Below, in pieces: positions 17,877 to 45,099 of a DNA stretch of 52,356 bases. The notes under the pieces are model-generated. The model was not told where the DNA came from, did no database searches, and saw nothing but the letters and a program-made list of their open reading frames with translations. Origin of the DNA: Acidobacteriota bacterium. GTDB lineage: Bacteria > Acidobacteriota > Vicinamibacteria > Fen-336. How positions within the stretch are numbered: position 1 is the stretch's first letter; the number at the start of each line of letters is the position of its first letter. The position numbers were made by a program, and so were the translations under genes. The stretch is taken from contig JACQGI010000029.1 of the NCBI GenBank assembly GCA_016199625.1, positions 1 to 52,356 of the forward strand. The letters are read 5' to 3'.

Positions 17877-20828
17877 TCAGAAGTCGTAGCCGATCCAGAA
17901 ATCGAACCGGGTGTTGCGCGACGTCACCTTGAGGTCCGTGAGCTTCGACCAGTCGAAGTGGAGGGGATAGCCGAGAAAGAAGAACTGCAGCCCGACGCCG
18001 TACGAGGCGCGCCCGTCCACCAGGTGGAACCCCGAGACCGGCTCGCCGAAGACCGGGTCGTTGACGTAGGAGATCCCGTCCCCGCTCGAGGAGAATCGGA
18101 ACCGCTCGCCCTTGAAGCGGGCGCCGCCCACGCCGGCGTACAACGTTCCCCGCACGGGTCCCAGGATGCCCAACGGCGTCTTCATCACGTCGATGATCGG
18201 CACCCGGAGCTCGGCATTGGCGAAGAAGCCCTCGTGGCCCGAGAACGAGAGATAGGGAAAGCCCCTGAGCTCCATGTTGCCGCCGAAATAGAAGATCGCC
18301 GGGTCGTCGCCCATGGACTTGAAGCCGCGCACCCGGGTGGCCAGAACGGCCGTGGTTCCACCGAGGCGGAGGTACTTGCGGGCGTCCAGCTCGACGGTCC
18401 TGCGCGAGAGGCTAGTCTCGCCGAGGCTCGGAGACAGCTCGAAACCCAGGAGGACCGTGCTCCCCGCGAGCGGCCCGAACTCGCGGAAGCGCGTCGTCTC
18501 TTGGACCAGGTTCACGGCGAGCGGGGCGAGGGTGCCGTCGTTGAGGAAGAACCGCACCCCCAGGAGGGCGGCCTGCTCGCGAGCGAGGGCCTCGGCTTCG
18601 GGGTTTTCGAACCGCTCCTTGAGCTTGAAGATCCCGGCGGAGAACTCGAGGCGTCGGAACTTGTCGAAGGGGTAGCGTGCGATGAGGTTGGCGCCGCTCA
18701 GGCGTTGGGTCGCGAAGGCGCCCTGGCGGTCGAAGATCCCGCGCTGCAGGCCGTACGGGGAAGCGTAGAAGAAGCGCGTGGTGTCGAAGGCCGTGAGACC
18801 GTACTGGAGCCGCTTGGCGAGGTTGACGTAGGTGCCCTCGTAGCTGCGGAACTCCCGGAGCGAGATCGCCGTCAGCACGAAGTTCTGGTCCCCGAGGACG
18901 TCGGAGAGCGCCACCTGACTGCCGCCGAAGAAGTCGCCGCCCGACGTGACCCCCACGTTGATGGGAGGCCGACCCTCGAGGAACAGTTTCTCGAAGACCC
19001 GCTTCTTGCGCTTGTTCTCCGCCACGACCCGGTGCTCGACCTCGGGCTGGAAGTCCACGGGTCCGTCGTCGGCCACCCGGACCTCCTGCTCCACCTCCTT
19101 CACGGGCTCCGTGGTCTCGAGGGCGTGGAGGCGGTACTCCCCCTTGAAGTAGCTGATGAAGCCGATCCGGTCGCCGCTCTTGCCCTTGAGGACCGCGGGC
19201 GCCATGTTCCCCCCGAGGGCGTCGGTGTACTGCCGCACGACACCCGTCTGGAGGTCGAGGCTTCGCAGGTTGTAGATCTCGCTGTCCTCGTTGGACGCGT
19301 AGTACACGAGGCCGCCGTCGGGGGAGAAGGCCGGTGAGACGTCGTCGTGGGTACCGAACGTCAGCTGGGTCTTCTGCGACGGGCTCGCGAGGGGAAAGGC
19401 GTAGAGCTTGCTGTAGCCGCTCACCCGGCGGCTGTAGACCACGAGGTCGCCTTTGGGCGAGGCCTGGGGGTCGGCGTCGGCGAAGGAGTCCTGGGTGAGG
19501 TTGCGGTACTCCCCCGTCTCGAGGTCCATGAGGAAGATGTCGGAGACGCCGTCCTTGAGCGCCGTGAAGACCACGCGCCGGCGGTCCGGAAGCAGGTGCG
19601 GGGCGTTGGCCTCGTCGAGGTCCAGGGGCACCTTGCGGACGACCTCGCCGGTCAGGACCGAGACGAGGAGCAGGCTCCGACGCTTGCCGGTCCGGGCGAA
19701 GAAGGCCACGGCGTCGCCGCCGGGATCGAAGGCGATGGAGCGGCCGATGTTCCGCGCGTTGAAGTTGACCGTGATGTCCTCGAACGCGTTGCTGTAGCCC
19801 GAGGTGAGGTTCCGGATGACGCCGCGGTCCCGGGCCGAGAGCAACACGATGTCGAGCTCCCCGTCGGAGCGGTTGGCCGTCACGGCCGCCACGACCTCCC
19901 CCGATGGACTCGGGGCGAAGGCGATGACCTGGGTGTAGCGCGTCCGCTCGGCGTCGGGGGAGAGATCCCGTCCGTAGTCGCTCGGGCGCTGCTTGTCCCG
20001 GAACGGCTTGAAGCGTTCCTTCAGCCACTTCTCGAAGGCCTCGTCGAACTCCTCGGGCTTGATCCGGAAGGCCTGCTGGTAGATGTCGTCGGCGCTTCCC
20101 CCCACGATGTTCTTGCGCAGCGTGTAGAGGAACTGGCGGATGCCCTCCTTGCCATACCGCGCCTCTATGAACTCGAAGGCCGCATGGCCGAGGTTGTAGA
20201 CCACCCGCGGGTTGAAGCCGCCGTACTCCTCGAAGCGCGAGAGCTTGGGGATCTGCTCCGTCACCGCGGCGTCGCGGATCGTCATGAGGTCCAGGGGATC
20301 CCAGAGGCCCCGCTCGTAGTCGGCCAGGCCCTCGTCGACCCACAGGGGGACGCTCCGCTGGATCAGATTGCGGGGGATCAGGTCGAACTCGAAGATGTGG
20401 GTCAGCTCGTGGGTGATGAGGCCCTGGAGCAGATCGGGCGGCTCGTCGATGGGGAGCACCATCCGGTCGCGGGAGGGCTCGGCGAAGGCCAGGATGCCCT
20501 CCGAGATGAAGTCGGGGAACAGGTTGGTCTGCTCGAACTCCGAGTGGGTCTTGTAGAGGATCAGCGGTACGGCGAAGTTGAGCTCGTGCTTGAGGTCAGC
20601 CGAGACCTTCTGGTAGGCGCTCTCGGCGTAGGAGGCGATCCGGGCGAGGTGCTGCTCGAACTCGGGGTAGTAGTAGACCTCGAAGTGCGGGCTCTTGTAG
20701 ACCCGCCACGCGAAGTCGTCGTACTTGACCTTGTTCTTGCCGTAGTACGGGATGAACTGCGCGCGTGCGGGCTGCGGAAGGGCGAGGACGACGGCGAGGA
20801 GCAACCCGGCGGATCGGAGCGTTCTCAT
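17877..20828 (-). CDS. Peptidase MA-like / beta-propeller / Omp85-type barrel fusion protein
   Basis: 983-residue exported outer-membrane protein. After a signal peptide (cleavage near ARA-QF, residue 23) comes a gluzincin-type zinc peptidase domain with H140-E-L-T-H144 and the downstream glutamate E166 in VPLWVDEGLADYE. Residues about 295-590 are PD40/TolB-like propeller blades (YTQVIAFAPSPSGEVVA, DADPQASPKGDLVVYS, DVSPAFSPDGGLVYYAS). From about 630 to the C-terminal Phe (FWIGYDF) it is a beta-barrel with FGGNMELRGFPY, matching the L6 motif of Omp85 proteins. No POTRA domain is present. It follows the lipoprotein gene by 8 bp. Proteolysis, assembly or surface anchoring are all possible; no function can be named. 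Confidence 0.85.
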   Translation of the reverse strand: MRTLRSAGLLLAVVLALPQPARAQFIPYYGKNKVKYDDFAWRVYKSPHFEVYYYPEFEQHLARIASYAESAYQKVSADLKHELNFAVPLILYKTHSEFEQTNLFPDFISEGILAFAEPSRDRMVLPIDEPPDLLQGLITHELTHIFEFDLIPRNLIQRSVPLWVDEGLADYERGLWDPLDLMTIRDAAVTEQIPKLSRFEEYGGFNPRVVYNLGHAAFEFIEARYGKEGIRQFLYTLRKNIVGGSADDIYQQAFRIKPEEFDEAFEKWLKERFKPFRDKQRPSDYGRDLSPDAERTRYTQVIAFAPSPSGEVVAAVTANRSDGELDIVLLSARDRGVIRNLTSGYSNAFEDITVNFNARNIGRSIAFDPGGDAVAFFARTGKRRSLLLVSVLTGEVVRKVPLDLDEANAPHLLPDRRRVVFTALKDGVSDIFLMDLETGEYRNLTQDSFADADPQASPKGDLVVYSRRVSGYSKLYAFPLASPSQKTQLTFGTHDDVSPAFSPDGGLVYYASNEDSEIYNLRSLDLQTGVVRQYTDALGGNMAPAVLKGKSGDRIGFISYFKGEYRLHALETTEPVKEVEQEVRVADDGPVDFQPEVEHRVVAENKRKKRVFEKLFLEGRPPINVGVTSGGDFFGGSQVALSDVLGDQNFVLTAISLREFRSYEGTYVNLAKRLQYGLTAFDTTRFFYASPYGLQRGIFDRQGAFATQRLSGANLIARYPFDKFRRLEFSAGIFKLKERFENPEAEALAREQAALLGVRFFLNDGTLAPLAVNLVQETTRFREFGPLAGSTVLLGFELSPSLGETSLSRRTVELDARKYLRLGGTTAVLATRVRGFKSMGDDPAIFYFGGNMELRGFPYLSFSGHEGFFANAELRVPIIDVMKTPLGILGPVRGTLYAGVGGARFKGERFRFSSSGDGISYVNDPVFGEPVSGFHLVDGRASYGVGLQFFFLGYPLHFDWSKLTDLKVTSRNTRFDFWIGYDF

Positions 20829-20836
20829 GGGACTTC

Positions 20837-21616
20837 CTATCGCAGCAGGACCCGGGTGCCCCGGATCCTCTGCGGCGTGATCACGCCGAGGAAGTTGGGG
20901 AGCAGGCGGTCCATGAGCTCGAAGTACGCGGAGAGCGGCGAGATCTTCTGCTCCTCGCCGTAGAGGACCTCCTCGGTGAACTTCTCCTTGTGGAGGGTCT
21001 GGCCCGTGCGGCCGTCGATGAAGTAGAAGTCGGCGGACAGGCTGAAGCCCTTGCGCTCGAGATACCGACTGCCGCGGACGAGACGCGGCCGGTTCGTACC
21101 GGGGTCGCGGACGACCCGCTCCTCGGCCTGGAAGCCCGACCGGTTCTGCACGTCGAACCCGACGCGCCCGGTGACGATCAAGGGCGACTGGAACTCCTCG
21201 CCCACCTTGCGCCAGAAGTCGCCGTCCTGCAGGACTCGGTCGGTCTCCAGGCGATACTGCTCCTTCTCCTGCTTCGTGTACTTGCCCCCCTCGCCCAGGT
21301 TCTCGAGGATCCGCTCGAGGGCGTCCTGGATCGGCGGCCGGTCGGGCTCCAGGACCTGGAGCCGGGTGCTGGAACGGAGCTGGTTCTGCAGCAGCCGGAC
21401 CGACTCCGCGGAGAGGTCCACGTCGGACTCCGCCAGCTCGGTGGCGAAGCCGGCGAGGAGGATGCGCCTGAAGGGCGCCACGTCGAGCTTCGACTGCAGC
21501 GGCGTCTCCACCGGCACCTCGACGAAGGAGGCACAGCCGCCGAGGAGGAGCGGAACCACAGCCGCCGCGGCCCTAGGGACTCTTCTTGCTCTTGGTGCGG
21601 CGGTTGCGCTTCTCAT
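20837..21616 (-). CDS. Lipoprotein of unknown function
   Basis: 259 residues with a basic, Ala-rich N-terminus and a lipobox LLLGGC, Cys28, so probably an outer-membrane lipoprotein facing the periplasm. The rest is soluble alpha/beta: ILLAGFATELAESDVDLSAES, then FQSPLIVTGRVGFDVQNRSGF and SADFYFIDGRTGQTLHKEKF, a shape reminiscent of CsgG/LpoB-like lipoproteins, though I cannot assign it. Its start overlaps the upstream TPR gene by 44 bp, and no later in-frame start leaves a complete signal, so the long overlap seems real. It probably works with the peptidase-propeller-barrel protein. Confidence 0.75.
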   Translation of the reverse strand: MRSATAAPRARRVPRAAAAVVPLLLGGCASFVEVPVETPLQSKLDVAPFRRILLAGFATELAESDVDLSAESVRLLQNQLRSSTRLQVLEPDRPPIQDALERILENLGEGGKYTKQEKEQYRLETDRVLQDGDFWRKVGEEFQSPLIVTGRVGFDVQNRSGFQAEERVVRDPGTNRPRLVRGSRYLERKGFSLSADFYFIDGRTGQTLHKEKFTEEVLYGEEQKISPLSAYFELMDRLLPNFLGVITPQRIRGTRVLLR

Positions 21617-21938
21617 CCGCCTCCCTGAAGAGGTCGTAGTTCTGCTGGACGTAGAGATTGCCCGGCTCGAGCTTCAAGGCCTTCTCGTAGGCCGCCCGGG
21701 CCTTCTCGAACTCCCCCTGCTGCTCGAGGGCCACCGCCAGATCGTTCAGGGCCTCGGCGTTGTCGGGGTCGAGGGCGACGGCCTTCTCGAAACGGAAGCG
21801 CGCCTCGCCCCAAAGGCCTCTGCGGGCCACGTCGATCCCGAAGCGCAGTTGCTCGCCGGCCGTCGCCCCCCTCGCGTCGGCCGAGCGGGAGGGGAGCAAC
21901 GCGAGGACAAAGAGGGAGAGGAAGAAGGCGGACCGCAT
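21573..21938 (-). CDS. Exported TPR-repeat protein
   Basis: 121-residue protein with a signal peptide (FFLSLFVLALLPSRSADA) and two to three TPR units: ARRGLWGEARFRFEKAVALD, NAEALNDLAVALEQQGEFEK, ARAAYEKALKLEPGN. The tail is highly basic (KRNRRTKSKKSP). GGAG lies 8 nt before ATG 21938. First gene of the operon, driven by a -24/-12 element about 50 bp upstream. Likely a periplasmic scaffold for the lipoprotein and the barrel protein, by context only. Confidence 0.85.
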   Translation of the reverse strand: MRSAFFLSLFVLALLPSRSADARGATAGEQLRFGIDVARRGLWGEARFRFEKAVALDPDNAEALNDLAVALEQQGEFEKARAAYEKALKLEPGNLYVQQNYDLFREADEKRNRRTKSKKSP

Positions 21939-38568: not shown

Positions 38569-41500
38569 GTGACCCGCCGCCTGCGCCTCGCCCTGACCGC
38601 CGCCCTCCTCCTCGGGGGCCTGAGCCTCCTCCTCCTCCCGCAGCTCGCGCGGGTCGTCCTCGTCCAGCGGCTCTCGTCTCTCTTCCGCCGGGACGTCACC
38701 GTCCGGGCGGTACGCTTCTACGTGGTCCCCTTCCAGGTGGAGGTCACGGGCCTCCGTGTGGCGGGGAGCGCTCCCGGCGGGCCGCCGTTCCTAGAGGTGC
38801 CGCGGGCCGAGATCGTCCCGAGCTTCGCATCCCTGGTCGGGCCCCACGTGGCCCTCGCACGCCTCCGGCTCCAGGGCCTCGTCCTCCGCATCAACGCCTT
38901 CCCCCAGGGCGGCGACGACATCCCGAAAGTGGGCGGGAGGAGCGGCGGGGGCGGCGAGCTCAGGATCCGCCGTCTCGTGATCGAGGACGGTGCCTTCCTG
39001 CTCAACCACGCCCGGGTACCCCTCGAGTTGGACCTGCCCGAATTCCGCGGCCGGCTCGCCGCGCGGCGCGGCGGGGCCCTCGCGGGGACCGTCCACTTCG
39101 GCGGCGGCACGCTGCAGTTCGGCACGGCCCCGCCCCTGGGGGTCGGGGCCGACCTCGACCTCGTCCTCGAGGGCTCGTTCCTGACCCTCGAGTCGGGCCA
39201 CCTGCGCAGCGCGCGGGCCGACCTGGCTGCCAGCGGGAGGCTCAAGCTGCAGAAGGACCCCGTGGGAGAGTTCGCTCTCAGGGGCCCTCTCGACCTCGAC
39301 GAGCTCGAGCGCCACGTGATGCGCACCGGCTTCGGGATCAAGGGCGACGCCCGCTACGACGGGACGCTGGAGATCGAAGGGCCTCGCCTGCGCTTCAAGG
39401 GCCGTCTCACCGGGACCGCCGGCGAGTTCGACGGTGTGCCCGTGCCACGTTACGCCGGCTTCGTCGCCAAGGACGAGAACGGGACCCATATCCAGGGGCT
39501 CGAGGTCGAGACCCTGGGGGGCGCCGGCGTCCTGGACATCGAGGTGCCTCCCGCCCCATCCATCGCCACCCTCGACGCCCGGTTCGACCGCGTCGACGCC
39601 GAAGGGGCCGTGAGGGCGATCTTCGACCTCGGTCCCTTGGGGGTGGGTGCCGCTTCGACGGGCACCGCGTCGATCCGCTGGCCGCGGGGGCGCATCCGTC
39701 ACCTCTCCGGCGCGATCGCCTTCGACATGTCGCCGCGGGAGGACGGGCGCACGCCTCTCGAAGGGCGCTTCGAGTGGACCGCCAAGGACGGGCTCCAGAA
39801 GATCGGGAAGGCGGATCTCCGGACCCCCGCGACGTGGGTGCGCCTCGCCGGCAGCGTCCAGGTGGACGACCGGACCGACATGCGCGTGGACGGGGAGAGC
39901 CGCGATCTCGCCGCGAGCGACGACCTCTTCCTGCGCCTCCGCCGCGCCCTCGGGACGGCCGAAGCCCAGCTCTTCGAGATCTCCGGCTCGGGGCTCTTCC
40001 GTGGCCGCTGGACGGGAACCCTCGCGGTGCCCGTGTTCACCGGGCGGTTCACGGGGGTCGACGTGGGCTACCTGGGCGTCGTGTGGGGGCGTGCGGAGTG
40101 GGCGGGTACCGCGGACCCCTTGGTGATCGAGTCGCGCTCCCTCGTGGTGCGCCGGCCGGGGGGCGAGATCTGGTTGGACGGCCGCACCGAGACCGGGCTC
40201 TACGGCGAGCGTGACGGTATCGACGTCCGCGTGCGCTTCCAGGGCTGGCCAGCGCCCGACTTCATCCGCGCCCTGGAGTGGCGCGTGGACGTGACCGGGC
40301 TGGTCTCCGGCGAGGCGACGGTCACCGGGCGCCGGAGCGCGCCCTTCGGGACGGCCCGCGTCTCCTGTCCGGAGGGGCGGTACTACGGCATCCCCTTCGA
40401 GGACCTCGACGTGACCACGCTGCTCGAGGGCGACCTCGCCCAGGTGCCCGAGGGACGAGCCCGCGTCGGCGGCGGCGACGTCGTCTTCGAAGGGACGCTG
40501 ACCGACGACGAGGTCTTCGATGGGACCGCCACCGCGCGGGACGTGGAGGTCGGCGAGGTGCTGCCGGCGCCAGCCCCCGAGGTGCCCTGGGGCGGACGCG
40601 TCTCGGGGGAGGTGACGCTGCAGGGGACCCTCGAGCGTCCGCGGGTCCTGGGGCGCTTCACGTCGCCGCGCCTGTTCCTGGGAGACGAGGGGCTCGGCGC
40701 CCTCACGTCCCGGGTGCGGGGCGTCGGAGACGGCCGCGTCACCCTGGAGGCCGAGTGCCGCTCCCACCGGGTCGCCCTGACGCTCTCGGGGAGCGTCGGG
40801 GCCGCCGTTCCTCACGAAGCCGCGCTCCGCCTGAGCGCCGACGACACGAGCGTCGATCCGTTCCTGCGGAAGCTCTTTCCGGCGGTGCCCATCGCGGTGG
40901 GCATCGTCGCCACCGGCACGGCCCGCCTCGACGGCCCCCTCGCGACGCCCGAGAGGCTCCACTTCGACGCCGATCTCCCCCGGTTCGAGCTGCTCCTTCC
41001 GGAATACCCCATCCGGAACCGCGAGCCCGTCCGCCTCTCCCTCGACGAGGGCCGGCTCAGCCTGCGCGAACTGCGCCTGGCCGGGGAAGGGACCGACCTC
41101 GCGGTCCGGGGCAGCGTGGGGCTCCTCGGCGCGGGCGTCCTCGACCTCGCGGCGAGTGGCGCCGCCGACCTCCGGGCGCTCTCGGCGGTGACCCGCCGGC
41201 TGCGCGGCCAGGGCGCCGCACGACTCGGCCTGACCGTCTCCGGGACGCGGGCGGCTCCGGCGGTCGAGGGGACCCTCGACCTCGAGGGCGCCGGACTCCG
41301 CGTGCGCGGATTCCCCCACGGGCTCGAAGGCGTGCACGGCCGGGTCCGCTTCACCGAAGCGGCCGCGGAGTTCGCGGGGGTCACGGGCACGCTGGGGGGC
41401 GGGACCGTGGAGCTCGAGGGCCAGTCCGCCCACGCCGCAGGGCGCCTCACGTCCTTCGACGTCCACGGCACGGGGCGAGGGCTCACCCTCCGGTACCCCG

Positions 41501-42429
41501 AGGGGCTGCGCAGCGTGGTGGACGCGGACCTGCGGCTCTACGGCGACGCGGCCCGCCAGTGGCTGGCCGGCGCGGTCGACGTGCGCCAGGCCCTCTACAC
41601 GCGTCGCTACGACGTGGCTTCGGAGCTGCTCGCCACGCGGGAGGCGTGGGAGGCCCGAGGCGGGGCGTCCCTCGCCGAGGGGCTCCACTACGGCGTGAAG
41701 CTGCGCGTGCCCGGGACGCTGCGCATCGACAACAACCTCGCGACGCTCCAGGCGCGGGCGGACCTCACCCTCCAGGGGACCTACGACTCCCCGGCGGTCC
41801 TCGGCCGTGCCCAGATCGAGCGGGGGCGGATCTACTTCCAGGGGAACACGTACGTCATCCGCCGGGGCACCATCGACTTCGCGAATCCCCAGAGGATCGA
41901 CCCGCTCTTCGACATCGAGGCGGAGACGCGCCTGCGGAGCTACCGCGTCACCCTCAAGGTGAACGGGACCCTCGAGCGCGTCTACCCCACTCTGTCCTCG
42001 GACCCGCCGCTCTCTGCCGTCCAGATCCTGAACCTGCTCGCCGGCGCCGACGAGAGCACCGTTGCGAGCCTCCAGGCGGCGCAGGCCGACCAGGCGCGAC
42101 TGGCGGCCACGGGCGCGGCGACCCTCGCCGCCGGCAAGATCGCCGAGGAGGTGGGTCTCGAGCGCGGAGCCGAGCGCCTCTTCGGCTTGAACCGCTTCTC
42201 CATCGACCCGTCGGTGGTCAAGGGAGGCGTCACGAACCCGACGGCGCGACTCACCGTGGGCAAGCGCATCACCCCGGACCTGAACGTCCTCTACTCCGTG
42301 GACCTCCGGGGGACGGAGGAGCGCCTCCTGTCGGTGGAATACACCCTCTCGGACCGCCTCTCCGTGCTCCTCACCCGCACCGAGCCCGGCGGCTTCGGGT
42401 TCGACCTGCGCCTGCGGCGGTCCTACTGA
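38569..42429 (+). CDS. tamB: TamB/AsmA-like protein (DUF490 C-terminus)
   Basis: 1286 residues, similar to Escherichia coli TamB (about 1260). An N-terminal signal anchor (LALTAALLLGGLSLLLLPQL) is followed by long amphipathic beta repeats of the bridge-like lipid-transfer/AsmA superfamily, with AsmA-like segments LSSLFRRDVTVRAVRF. The last about 300 residues match DUF490/TamB: GRAQIERGRIYFQGNTYVIR, IDFANPQRIDPLFDIEAETR, LLAGADESTVAS, TVGKRITPDLNVLYSVDL. It would span the periplasm and move phospholipid or aid outer-membrane proteins. It abuts the Omp85 gene (TGA then ATG). Start GTG 38569 has GGGGGAG upstream. Confidence 0.9.
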   Translation: MTRRLRLALTAALLLGGLSLLLLPQLARVVLVQRLSSLFRRDVTVRAVRFYVVPFQVEVTGLRVAGSAPGGPPFLEVPRAEIVPSFASLVGPHVALARLRLQGLVLRINAFPQGGDDIPKVGGRSGGGGELRIRRLVIEDGAFLLNHARVPLELDLPEFRGRLAARRGGALAGTVHFGGGTLQFGTAPPLGVGADLDLVLEGSFLTLESGHLRSARADLAASGRLKLQKDPVGEFALRGPLDLDELERHVMRTGFGIKGDARYDGTLEIEGPRLRFKGRLTGTAGEFDGVPVPRYAGFVAKDENGTHIQGLEVETLGGAGVLDIEVPPAPSIATLDARFDRVDAEGAVRAIFDLGPLGVGAASTGTASIRWPRGRIRHLSGAIAFDMSPREDGRTPLEGRFEWTAKDGLQKIGKADLRTPATWVRLAGSVQVDDRTDMRVDGESRDLAASDDLFLRLRRALGTAEAQLFEISGSGLFRGRWTGTLAVPVFTGRFTGVDVGYLGVVWGRAEWAGTADPLVIESRSLVVRRPGGEIWLDGRTETGLYGERDGIDVRVRFQGWPAPDFIRALEWRVDVTGLVSGEATVTGRRSAPFGTARVSCPEGRYYGIPFEDLDVTTLLEGDLAQVPEGRARVGGGDVVFEGTLTDDEVFDGTATARDVEVGEVLPAPAPEVPWGGRVSGEVTLQGTLERPRVLGRFTSPRLFLGDEGLGALTSRVRGVGDGRVTLEAECRSHRVALTLSGSVGAAVPHEAALRLSADDTSVDPFLRKLFPAVPIAVGIVATGTARLDGPLATPERLHFDADLPRFELLLPEYPIRNREPVRLSLDEGRLSLRELRLAGEGTDLAVRGSVGLLGAGVLDLAASGAADLRALSAVTRRLRGQGAARLGLTVSGTRAAPAVEGTLDLEGAGLRVRGFPHGLEGVHGRVRFTEAAAEFAGVTGTLGGGTVELEGQSAHAAGRLTSFDVHGTGRGLTLRYPEGLRSVVDADLRLYGDAARQWLAGAVDVRQALYTRRYDVASELLATREAWEARGGASLAEGLHYGVKLRVPGTLRIDNNLATLQARADLTLQGTYDSPAVLGRAQIERGRIYFQGNTYVIRRGTIDFANPQRIDPLFDIEAETRLRSYRVTLKVNGTLERVYPTLSSDPPLSAVQILNLLAGADESTVASLQAAQADQARLAATGAATLAAGKIAEEVGLERGAERLFGLNRFSIDPSVVKGGVTNPTARLTVGKRITPDLNVLYSVDLRGTEERLLSVEYTLSDRLSVLLTRTEPGGFGFDLRLRRSY

Positions 42430-45099
42430 ATGACGGCGACGCTCCTGGCCCTCGTCCTGCTCGCGGCCCCGGCCGTGTACGAGGGCGAGACCGTGGCCTC
42501 GGTGCGCCTCGAGGGCGAGGGCGTCGACGTGGCCCGCTACGAGCGCTACGTGGAGATCCCCGTGGGGCAGCCCTTCCGCGCCACCGTCGTGCGCCACGTC
42601 GTCGAGCTCCTCCACGCCACCGGTGCGTTCGAGGACGTCGTGGTCGAGGCGGAGCGCACGCCGGCGGGCGTGGCTGTGGTCGTCCGGCCCGTCCCGGCGC
42701 CGCTCCTGGCCGACGTCCGGCTCGAGGGCGACCGCATCCTCGACGCGGGGGCGGTGCGCCGCACGGCCCGCCTCGAGGACCGCGAGCCCCTCTGGCTCGA
42801 GCGGCTGGAGCGCGCGGCCCGCGACGTGGCGTTGCACCTGGCGGCGGACGGGTACCTCGAGGCCCGTGTGACCGCCGCGGCCCGACCGAAGGCCGGCGGT
42901 GCGGACGCCGTCTTCAGCGTGCGTGCGGGCCCACGAGCGCGGGTCGGTTCCGTTGCCGTCGACGGCGTGCCGGACGCCCGGGCCCGGTCCCTCGTGAGCG
43001 TCGTACCCGTGCGGCCCGGCGACGTCTACAGGAGGCGCAGGGCGGACGCCGCCGCGGAGCGCGTGCGCCGGCGGCTGGTCGCCGGAGGCCACTGGCGCGC
43101 GGCGGTCGAGGTGCGGGAGGCGTACGACCCGGGGCGGGCTCGCGTGGGCCTGATCCTCGAAGTGCACCCGGGCCCGCTCACGTCCGTCGCCTTCGACGGG
43201 GCCCGGGTCCGCGGCGGCCTGCGCGCAGCCCTCGAGGCCATGCTCCGCGAGGGGCGCCTTCGCGGCGACGTCCTCGAGGAGGCGAGCGAACGACTCGAGG
43301 ATGCGTTCCGCCGCCGCGGCCACCGCGACGTCGCCGTCTCGTACCGCGAGGAGTCGCGGGGCTCCGGTCTCGCGGTCGTGTACCAGGTCCGGGCCGGGCC
43401 GGTGACCCAGGCCGCGTCGGTGGCGGTCCGAGGTGCGCCGGCCGGAATCGAGGGCCTCGTCCGTCTCCGCCCGGGCGATCCCGTCGACGACCGGCGCCTC
43501 GAGGAGGACGCGCGAGCCCTGACCCGCGTCCTCGAGGAGAGCGGCCACGCCGAGGCCCAGGTGGAGGTGGACCTGCCCGACGGCGGCGGCCTCGTCCCCG
43601 TCGCCCTCGTCGCCCGACCCGGCCCGCGGACGATGGTCGCCGCCCTGGCCGTGGAGTCCGCGCGCCCCGGGGAGGCTCTCCCCGAGGTCGCAGGGGCGCG
43701 CGCACACCGGCTGCGCCCTGGGGAGCCGTACCGGCTTCGGGATCTCGCCCTGGACCGCAACGACCTGCTGGCGGCGCTCCGCAACGCGGGCCATCTCCAG
43801 GCCGAGGTCTCCCCCGAGGTGACGTTCTCCGAGGGCCGCTCGGAGGCCCGCGTCACCCTCCGGGTGACGCCGGGCCCGCGGACGCGCGTCGACCACGTGA
43901 TCCTCGCGGGCCTCGAGAGAACGCGGCCCCAAGTCGTGCGCCGGGAGCTTCTCCTCGGCGAGGGGGAGCCCCTCGGCCTCCAGAACGTCCTCGAGAGCCA
44001 GCGGCGGCTGGGGGCCCTCGGCATTTTCGAGCGCGTGGCGGTCACCGAGATGGACCCCGAGTCGGTCGAGGCGCGCAGCCTGGTGGTGCGCGTGGACGAG
44101 GCGCCCCGGACCACCGTCGCGTACGGGGTCGGGTACGCCGAGCGGGACCTCCTGCGCGCCAGCGCCGAGGTCACGCGGCGCAACCTCTCGGGGCTCGACC
44201 GCAGCGTCTCCACCTTCGTGCGTGCCAGCTTCCGCGGCAACCGCTTCCTGACCACCTACAGGGAGCCCTACCTGTTCGGTAGGCGGCAGGAGCTCTTCCT
44301 CACGGGCTTTCGCGAGGAGGAGGAGCGCGAGAGCTTCTCGTTCCTGCGTTACGGGGGCCTCGTACAGACCGCCCGCAATGTAGGCGGGCGCTGGAGCCTC
44401 GTGGTGCGCTACACCTTCCAGAAGACCGGCATCTTCGACGTCCAGGTACCCCTCGACGATGTGGACCGGCAGTTCCGGAACACCACAACCTCGGGCCCCG
44501 CGGCCTCGATCATCCGCGACACGCGCGACGACCCCCTGGACCCCCGGCGGGGAGGCTTCCTGGGCGCCGACGTGCAGCTCTCCCACCGCCGCCTCGGGGG
44601 CGACGGCTTCGTCAAGGGCTTCCTCCAGGCCTCGGCGTACCGCCCCCTGGGCGGCGTCGCCGTCCTCGCCTTGGCCGGACGCGTGGGCCTCGGGCGGACG
44701 CTCGGGGTCGGCGTTCCGGAGCGCCTTCCGCTCCCCGACCGCTTCTTCGCCGGCGGCGACTACAGCCTCCGCGGCTTCAAGCTCGACACCGCCGGTCCCC
44801 TCGAACTCTCCACGACCGGCGAGCTCGTCCCCACCGGGGGCAACGCGCTCGTCCTCGGCGGGGCGGAGCTGCGCTTCGACCTCGGCCGGTTCCTCTCCGC
44901 CGCGGCCTTCGGCGAGGCCGGCACCGCATACCGCCTGGTCTCCGACGTCGATCTCGGCGCCCTGCGCCTCGCCGCCGGCATCGGCCTCCGCTACCGCAGC
45001 GCCTTGGGCCCCCTGCGCATCGACTGGGGCTACAAGCTGGGCCGTGAGCCGGACGAGTCGCCCTCCCGGTTCCATTTCACCATCGGCCATGCGTTCTGA
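42430..45099 (+). CDS. Omp85 outer-membrane assembly protein with seven POTRA repeats
   Basis: 889 residues, with a short signal peptide (about 1-18). I count seven POTRA-like repeats with the V-x-V-x-G start: about 22, 94, 170, 250, 328, 402 and 487, each about 75 residues; the barrel runs from about 560 to the C-terminal Phe (HFTIGHAF). The barrel has the Omp85 signature GGDYSLRGF and RDDPLDPRRGGFLG. Because it directly follows tamB it is probably the TamA partner, but TamA normally has three POTRAs and BamA five, so a BamA role is also possible. The SurA-like gene overlaps its last 11 bp. Confidence 0.9.
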   Translation: MTATLLALVLLAAPAVYEGETVASVRLEGEGVDVARYERYVEIPVGQPFRATVVRHVVELLHATGAFEDVVVEAERTPAGVAVVVRPVPAPLLADVRLEGDRILDAGAVRRTARLEDREPLWLERLERAARDVALHLAADGYLEARVTAAARPKAGGADAVFSVRAGPRARVGSVAVDGVPDARARSLVSVVPVRPGDVYRRRRADAAAERVRRRLVAGGHWRAAVEVREAYDPGRARVGLILEVHPGPLTSVAFDGARVRGGLRAALEAMLREGRLRGDVLEEASERLEDAFRRRGHRDVAVSYREESRGSGLAVVYQVRAGPVTQAASVAVRGAPAGIEGLVRLRPGDPVDDRRLEEDARALTRVLEESGHAEAQVEVDLPDGGGLVPVALVARPGPRTMVAALAVESARPGEALPEVAGARAHRLRPGEPYRLRDLALDRNDLLAALRNAGHLQAEVSPEVTFSEGRSEARVTLRVTPGPRTRVDHVILAGLERTRPQVVRRELLLGEGEPLGLQNVLESQRRLGALGIFERVAVTEMDPESVEARSLVVRVDEAPRTTVAYGVGYAERDLLRASAEVTRRNLSGLDRSVSTFVRASFRGNRFLTTYREPYLFGRRQELFLTGFREEEERESFSFLRYGGLVQTARNVGGRWSLVVRYTFQKTGIFDVQVPLDDVDRQFRNTTTSGPAASIIRDTRDDPLDPRRGGFLGADVQLSHRRLGGDGFVKGFLQASAYRPLGGVAVLALAGRVGLGRTLGVGVPERLPLPDRFFAGGDYSLRGFKLDTAGPLELSTTGELVPTGGNALVLGGAELRFDLGRFLSAAAFGEAGTAYRLVSDVDLGALRLAAGIGLRYRSALGPLRIDWGYKLGREPDESPSRFHFTIGHAF

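Follow-up and report, generated by a model that had tools for sequence, protein, structure and literature searches.

The window analysed here is a 52,356-nucleotide stretch from a metagenome-assembled Acidobacteriota genome (class Vicinamibacteria, 63% complete). Its minus strand carries a gene for a 983-residue protein that is predicted, from sequence and modelling, to unite a gluzincin-type zinc peptidase, a TolB-like propeller and an Omp85-type barrel in one chain. Two partner genes adjoin it, and the features of the locus are as follows:

17877–20828, minus strand: gene for the 983-aa peptidase-propeller-barrel protein (single ORF, ATG start, orthologues)
20760–20828, minus strand: Sec signal peptide, residues 1–23 (LPQPARA/QF), read by eye from the sequence
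19974–20717, minus strand: predicted zinc-peptidase domain, residues ~38–285 (Peptidase_MA_2 match, helical domain in the model)
20331–20411, minus strand: zinc site H140-E141-x-x-H144 ... E166 (invariance in orthologues, two paralogues and a Salinibacter homologue)
19092–19937, minus strand: predicted six-bladed TolB-like beta-propeller, residues 298–579 (PD40, partial TIGR02800, model, Foldseek match to TolB)
17880–18983, minus strand: predicted Omp85-type barrel, residues ~616–983, with C-terminal Phe (model, Foldseek match to BamA, PF01103)
18252–18284, minus strand: loop-6 type motif GGNMELRGFPY, residues 849–859 (conservation; between predicted strands 11 and 12)
20837–21616, minus strand: partner lipoprotein, 259 aa, lipobox LGGC28 (model, Foldseek, FlgT_M/LpoB Pfam matches, synteny, co-occurrence)
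21573–21938, minus strand: small TPR protein, 121 aa, signal peptide (Pfam TPR_2 E 3e-15, synteny)

A chance ORF or annotation artefact can be ruled out for the 983-residue protein, because orthologues of equal length and architecture occur throughout the class and the phylum. Pfam searches detected PD40 repeats (E 1e-8), in keeping with the PD40-type blades that the initial annotation had placed at about residues 295–590. Two further profiles suggested there matched the window protein under their curated cut-offs: Peptidase_MA_2 (PF13485) over residues 70–263 (E 4e-5, 24.0 bits against a cut-off of 32.4) and Omp85 (PF01103) over residues 782–983 (E 7e-5, 22.9 bits, slightly under the cut-off of 24). 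When 25 orthologues were scanned one by one, PD40 was present in all 25, Peptidase_MA_2 in 24 (best E 7e-10) and the Omp85 profile in five (best E 6e-9), while a paralogue (L101) scored 37 bits on PF01103. No Pfam match was found in the protein to POTRA (PF07244) or patatin profiles, nor to the M48 peptidase profile at E 0.1. The NCBIfam TolB model TIGR02800 matched in its propeller part only (E 1e-19, 70.9 versus 343 bits). Identity with TolB itself was ruled out, given that this match scores far under the cut-off and lacks the TolB N-terminal domain, and that long TolB matches are found elsewhere in the genomes.

An AlphaFold2 model built from a 25-row alignment without templates (mean pLDDT 75.6, pTM 0.59) displays a helical domain at residues ~42–285, with the HELTH motif within helix 131–150 and E166 within helix 162–173. 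The propeller comprises six four-stranded blades (298–340, 365–402, 405–443, 450–488, 496–533 and 542–579), and is followed by a linker (583–613) modelled with low confidence, yet holding conserved residues among near relatives. The barrel has ~16 predicted strands, counted from the C-terminus where the barrel ends, the first of these (616–627) being weakly predicted. Counting back in the same way, GGNMELRGFPY falls between the 11th and 12th strands, which we take to be the place occupied by loop 6 in BamA. The motif is of the (V/I)RG(F/Y) type, as ELRGF at 853–857; its GG pair is invariant and R855 is kept in at least 95% of 61 orthologues, with RS replacing RG in some distant members. Comparison of the whole model with the PDB using Foldseek returned TolB (E 3e-11) and many BamA barrels (E 5e-10, TM 0.6 by target (barrel) length, ~400 columns); the matches listed were propellers and barrels, with none for the peptidase domain. 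The three-domain fusion originally read from the sequence is correct at the level of sequence and prediction, with a predicted barrel beyond residue 630 and an intact HExxH plus E166 carried on two helices.

The zinc ligands are found where the initial annotation had located them, with HELTH at 140–144 and E166 within WVDEG. Together, H140, E141, H144 and E166 make up the gluzincin signature of HExxH and a downstream Glu ligand. In an alignment of 61 orthologues, the most distant sharing 34% identity, the first 290 residues include 20 invariant positions; H140, E141, H144, W163, E166 and G167 belong to these. The four signature residues remain invariant once two paralogues and the Salinibacter homologue are added, so the loss of ligands in homologues that would have spoken against a zinc peptidase is not seen. 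Such invariance across the 61 orthologues implies an enzyme site under selection and argues for catalysis.

Both partner genes lie upstream of the barrel gene in the order TPR protein, lipoprotein, barrel, and neither had been noted in the initial annotation. The TPR and lipoprotein genes overlap by 44 bp, and a gap of 8 bp separates the lipoprotein from the barrel gene. Downstream are rplU, obgE and nadD, while dprA, topA and a tyrosine recombinase gene are located divergently upstream of the cluster. The TPR-lipoprotein-barrel cluster is retained in near families and at nearly all loci examined from other families of the phylum, down to ~34% identity. Six members of the class have the barrel gene elsewhere (G020, G024, G035, G047, G052 and G056), and these keep the adjoining TPR and lipoprotein genes between dprA and rplU. 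A functional tie to rplU-obgE-nadD was also considered; this adjacency is limited to near families and lost elsewhere, and is thus probably incidental. In one relative (L004, 878–4624) the lipoprotein and barrel genes form a single open frame of 1249 codons, representing either a genuine gene fusion or a frameshift introduced by sequencing.

By profile search, the lipoprotein is present in 107 of the 109 phylum genomes with a barrel orthologue versus 3 of the 138 without (Fisher P ~1e-63, shared ancestry not corrected for). The two genomes with a barrel and no lipoprotein match (G077 and G259) are from a family in which the remaining members score close to the limit of detection, and the lipoprotein may therefore have been missed there. 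All three genomes with the lipoprotein and no barrel orthologue come from one family (f47). The AlphaFold model of the lipoprotein (mean pLDDT 89.9) matches HpaA, FlgT, PelC, GNA1162, LptE, CsgG, LpoB and TolB in Foldseek (E 5e-5 to 2e-2, ~10% identity), weakly so for TolB and the N-terminal domain of that protein. Pfam scans of 32 members gave matches to the FlgT middle domain in ten and to LpoB in two. The predicted fold is that common to outer-membrane accessory lipoproteins of the PelC/GNA1162/CsgG/LpoB/LptE type.

The distribution of the barrel protein was determined in two genome sets. Every one of the 60 genomes in the relatives search, the window genome among them, gave a match, in most cases a full-length orthologue with 48–73% identity; four (G001, G021, G038 and G057) gave weaker or partial matches only. 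Nearly all sampled Vicinamibacteria have an orthologue. Within a sample of 247 Acidobacteriota genomes, 125 match and 109 hold an orthologue (defined as E < 1e-100). A second group of peptidase-propeller-barrel proteins is present in the phylum (L101, L102 and L120–L122; ~1020 aa, 25–28% identical to the protein described here). Most occur in genomes that lack the partner lipoprotein or accompany a first copy. No homologues were found in IMG/VR viral contigs or in PHROGs. Plasmid homologues were confined to TolB-like propellers and a single protein on Salinibacter ruber plasmid pSR116 (L103, 4908–6809; WP_118831798.1, annotated 'basic secretory protein-like'), which contains the peptidase and propeller and stops before the barrel.

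POTRA proteins were present in all 14 genomes searched, and long TolB matches in 12 of 13, the exception being the 63%-complete window genome. As these genomes also hold POTRA proteins and TolB matches, the barrel protein is an additional device. It is not the sole BamA of its genome, a role ruled out by one five-POTRA protein within the window and a second one on contig C42. The former is part of a TamA/BamA-TamB type pair on the plus strand (38569–45096), in which a TamB-like 1286-aa protein (PF04357 E 6e-47) immediately precedes an 889-aa five-POTRA Omp85 protein.

We propose that the protein is an outer-membrane-anchored zinc endopeptidase acting with its TPR and lipoprotein partners, and that it likely serves to mature proteins of the outer membrane or periplasm or to control their quality, a reading to which we would give about an even chance. 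The peptidase and propeller domains would hang in the periplasm from the Omp85-type barrel, in a putative complex with the small periplasmic TPR protein and the outer-membrane lipoprotein of PelC/LpoB/LptE-type fold. Propeller and TPR partner would bring substrates to be cut at the zinc site, with the barrel holding the enzyme at the membrane and possibly sensing or taking in barrel proteins. A periplasmic orientation is the most likely one for the N-terminal domains: the partners carry lipoprotein or signal peptides typical of that compartment, Omp85 proteins whose N-terminal part is periplasmic show the same order of domains, and PlpD, an enzyme-Omp85 fusion and the nearest analogue to have been tested, holds its enzyme domain on the periplasmic side (PMC11116518). 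A proteolytic quality-control role is favoured by the invariant zinc site together with a working precedent in E. coli, where BepA, a zinc peptidase of the periplasm, either promotes LptD or degrades it at the BAM machine (PMC8423444, PMC7950410).

It is possible, if rather unlikely, that the protein is instead a BAM-like assembly factor, with a barrel that inserts outer-membrane proteins, a propeller comparable to BamB, a TPR protein comparable to BamD, the lipoprotein as a further subunit and a peptidase that clears failed substrates. A BamA-like role combined with that of BamB was suggested for WD40-Omp85 proteins in the survey by Heinz & Lithgow (PMC4104836), and both the BamA-like barrel with its conserved loop-6 motif and the set of TPR, propeller and lipoprotein fit such a factor. 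The absence of POTRA domains from the window protein does not. POTRAs receive the substrates in BamA, and the 14 genomes searched all encode POTRA proteins; the window genome itself has two five-POTRA proteins, of which the one in the window is an Omp85 protein. The system is also missing from about half of the phylum sample, so it is not the essential insertase. A bolder reading, which we regard as doubtful, is a phylum-level, POTRA-less machine for assembly and proteolysis of outer-membrane proteins. A single chain would combine an insertase-type barrel, a substrate-binding propeller and an active zinc protease, the TPR protein and the LptE/LpoB-fold lipoprotein would be subunits, and outer-membrane proteins would be assessed and then cleaved or inserted in the same place.

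The initial annotation left the choice between a surface and a periplasmic protease, and the periplasmic option fits the data better than secretion through the protein's own barrel. Self-export resembling type Vd secretion, whereby the barrel would pass or display the peptidase-propeller outside to cut polymers or foreign proteins, is improbable in our estimation. An N-terminal enzyme with a C-terminal Omp85 barrel does recall how PlpD was first read, as type Vd, and the barrel-less Salinibacter plasmid protein suggests that the peptidase-propeller module can be exported on its own. However, PlpD itself retains its enzyme domain in the periplasm (PMC11116518), both conserved partners have the look of periplasmic or lipid-anchored proteins, and a folded enzyme and propeller of 550 residues is a large cargo for a 16-strand barrel. 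Least probable of all, and very unlikely, is a dead peptidase domain that binds peptides or cell wall, with the protein serving as a structural or sensory envelope anchor. The weak Pfam peptidase score could be taken that way, as could the fact that LpoB, which activates a peptidoglycan synthase, is among the proteins with the fold of the lipoprotein; against this, neither the metal ligands nor the catalytic Glu vary at all in the 61 orthologues, two paralogues and Salinibacter. We therefore retain the periplasm-facing endopeptidase as the preferred reading.

Outer-membrane biogenesis centres on Omp85 proteins, and to our knowledge POTRA domains are a feature of those characterised in bacteria. 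PF00149 is a metallophosphatase-type profile, and the 'Metallo' group of Omp85 proteins that it defines is different from the peptidase-propeller-barrel protein. In the 2014 survey by Heinz & Lithgow, PF00149 was called a metalloprotease domain there, and ten Omp85 subfamilies were distinguished, of which noNterm and WD40-Omp85 lack POTRAs, the latter being a propeller plus barrel likened to a BamA-BamB fusion (PMC4104836). The metalloprotease label may have hidden true protease-Omp85 fusions. With POTRA-less WD40-Omp85 proteins published, the initial view of POTRAs as the norm and of the fusion as unprecedented was too strong. Among open-licence papers, a fusion of Omp85 with PD40, a metallopeptidase or a propeller was found only in this survey. 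The broad propeller-Omp85 architecture is therefore already known, while neither the peptidase domain nor the two partners were found in that literature.

If the proposal is true, it would show that an outer-membrane barrel can itself incorporate proteolytic quality control. The widely conserved variant would carry a propeller and an intact zinc protease in place of POTRAs, plus two dedicated partner genes. The conserved barrel-lipoprotein-TPR set suggests a widespread, uncharacterised machine handling outer-membrane proteins, and offers genetic work a defined set of three genes to target in a phylum with little-studied envelope biology.

Several known systems come close. Like the present protein, WD40-Omp85 proteins place an N-terminal WD40/TolB-like propeller directly before the Omp85 barrel with no POTRA; the 2014 text mentions neither a peptidase domain nor partner genes for them (PMC4104836). 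PlpD and other patatin-Omp85 proteins likewise have an enzyme domain N-terminal to the barrel, whereas PlpD is a homodimer made of a patatin lipase and one POTRA, has no propeller and is linked to phospholipids (PMC11116518). BepA also joins a zinc peptidase to TPRs and acts on barrel proteins at the outer membrane, but is a soluble M48 protein without propeller or barrel (PMC8423444, PMC7950410). The six-bladed PD40 propeller is shared with TolB, which in contrast has its own N-terminal domain on the same chain and neither peptidase nor barrel. The partner lipoprotein resembles LptE, PelC, CsgG, LpoB and GNA1162 in general fold, at ~10% identity and with homology to no single one of them established; LptE, for its part, pairs with the barrel protein LptD.
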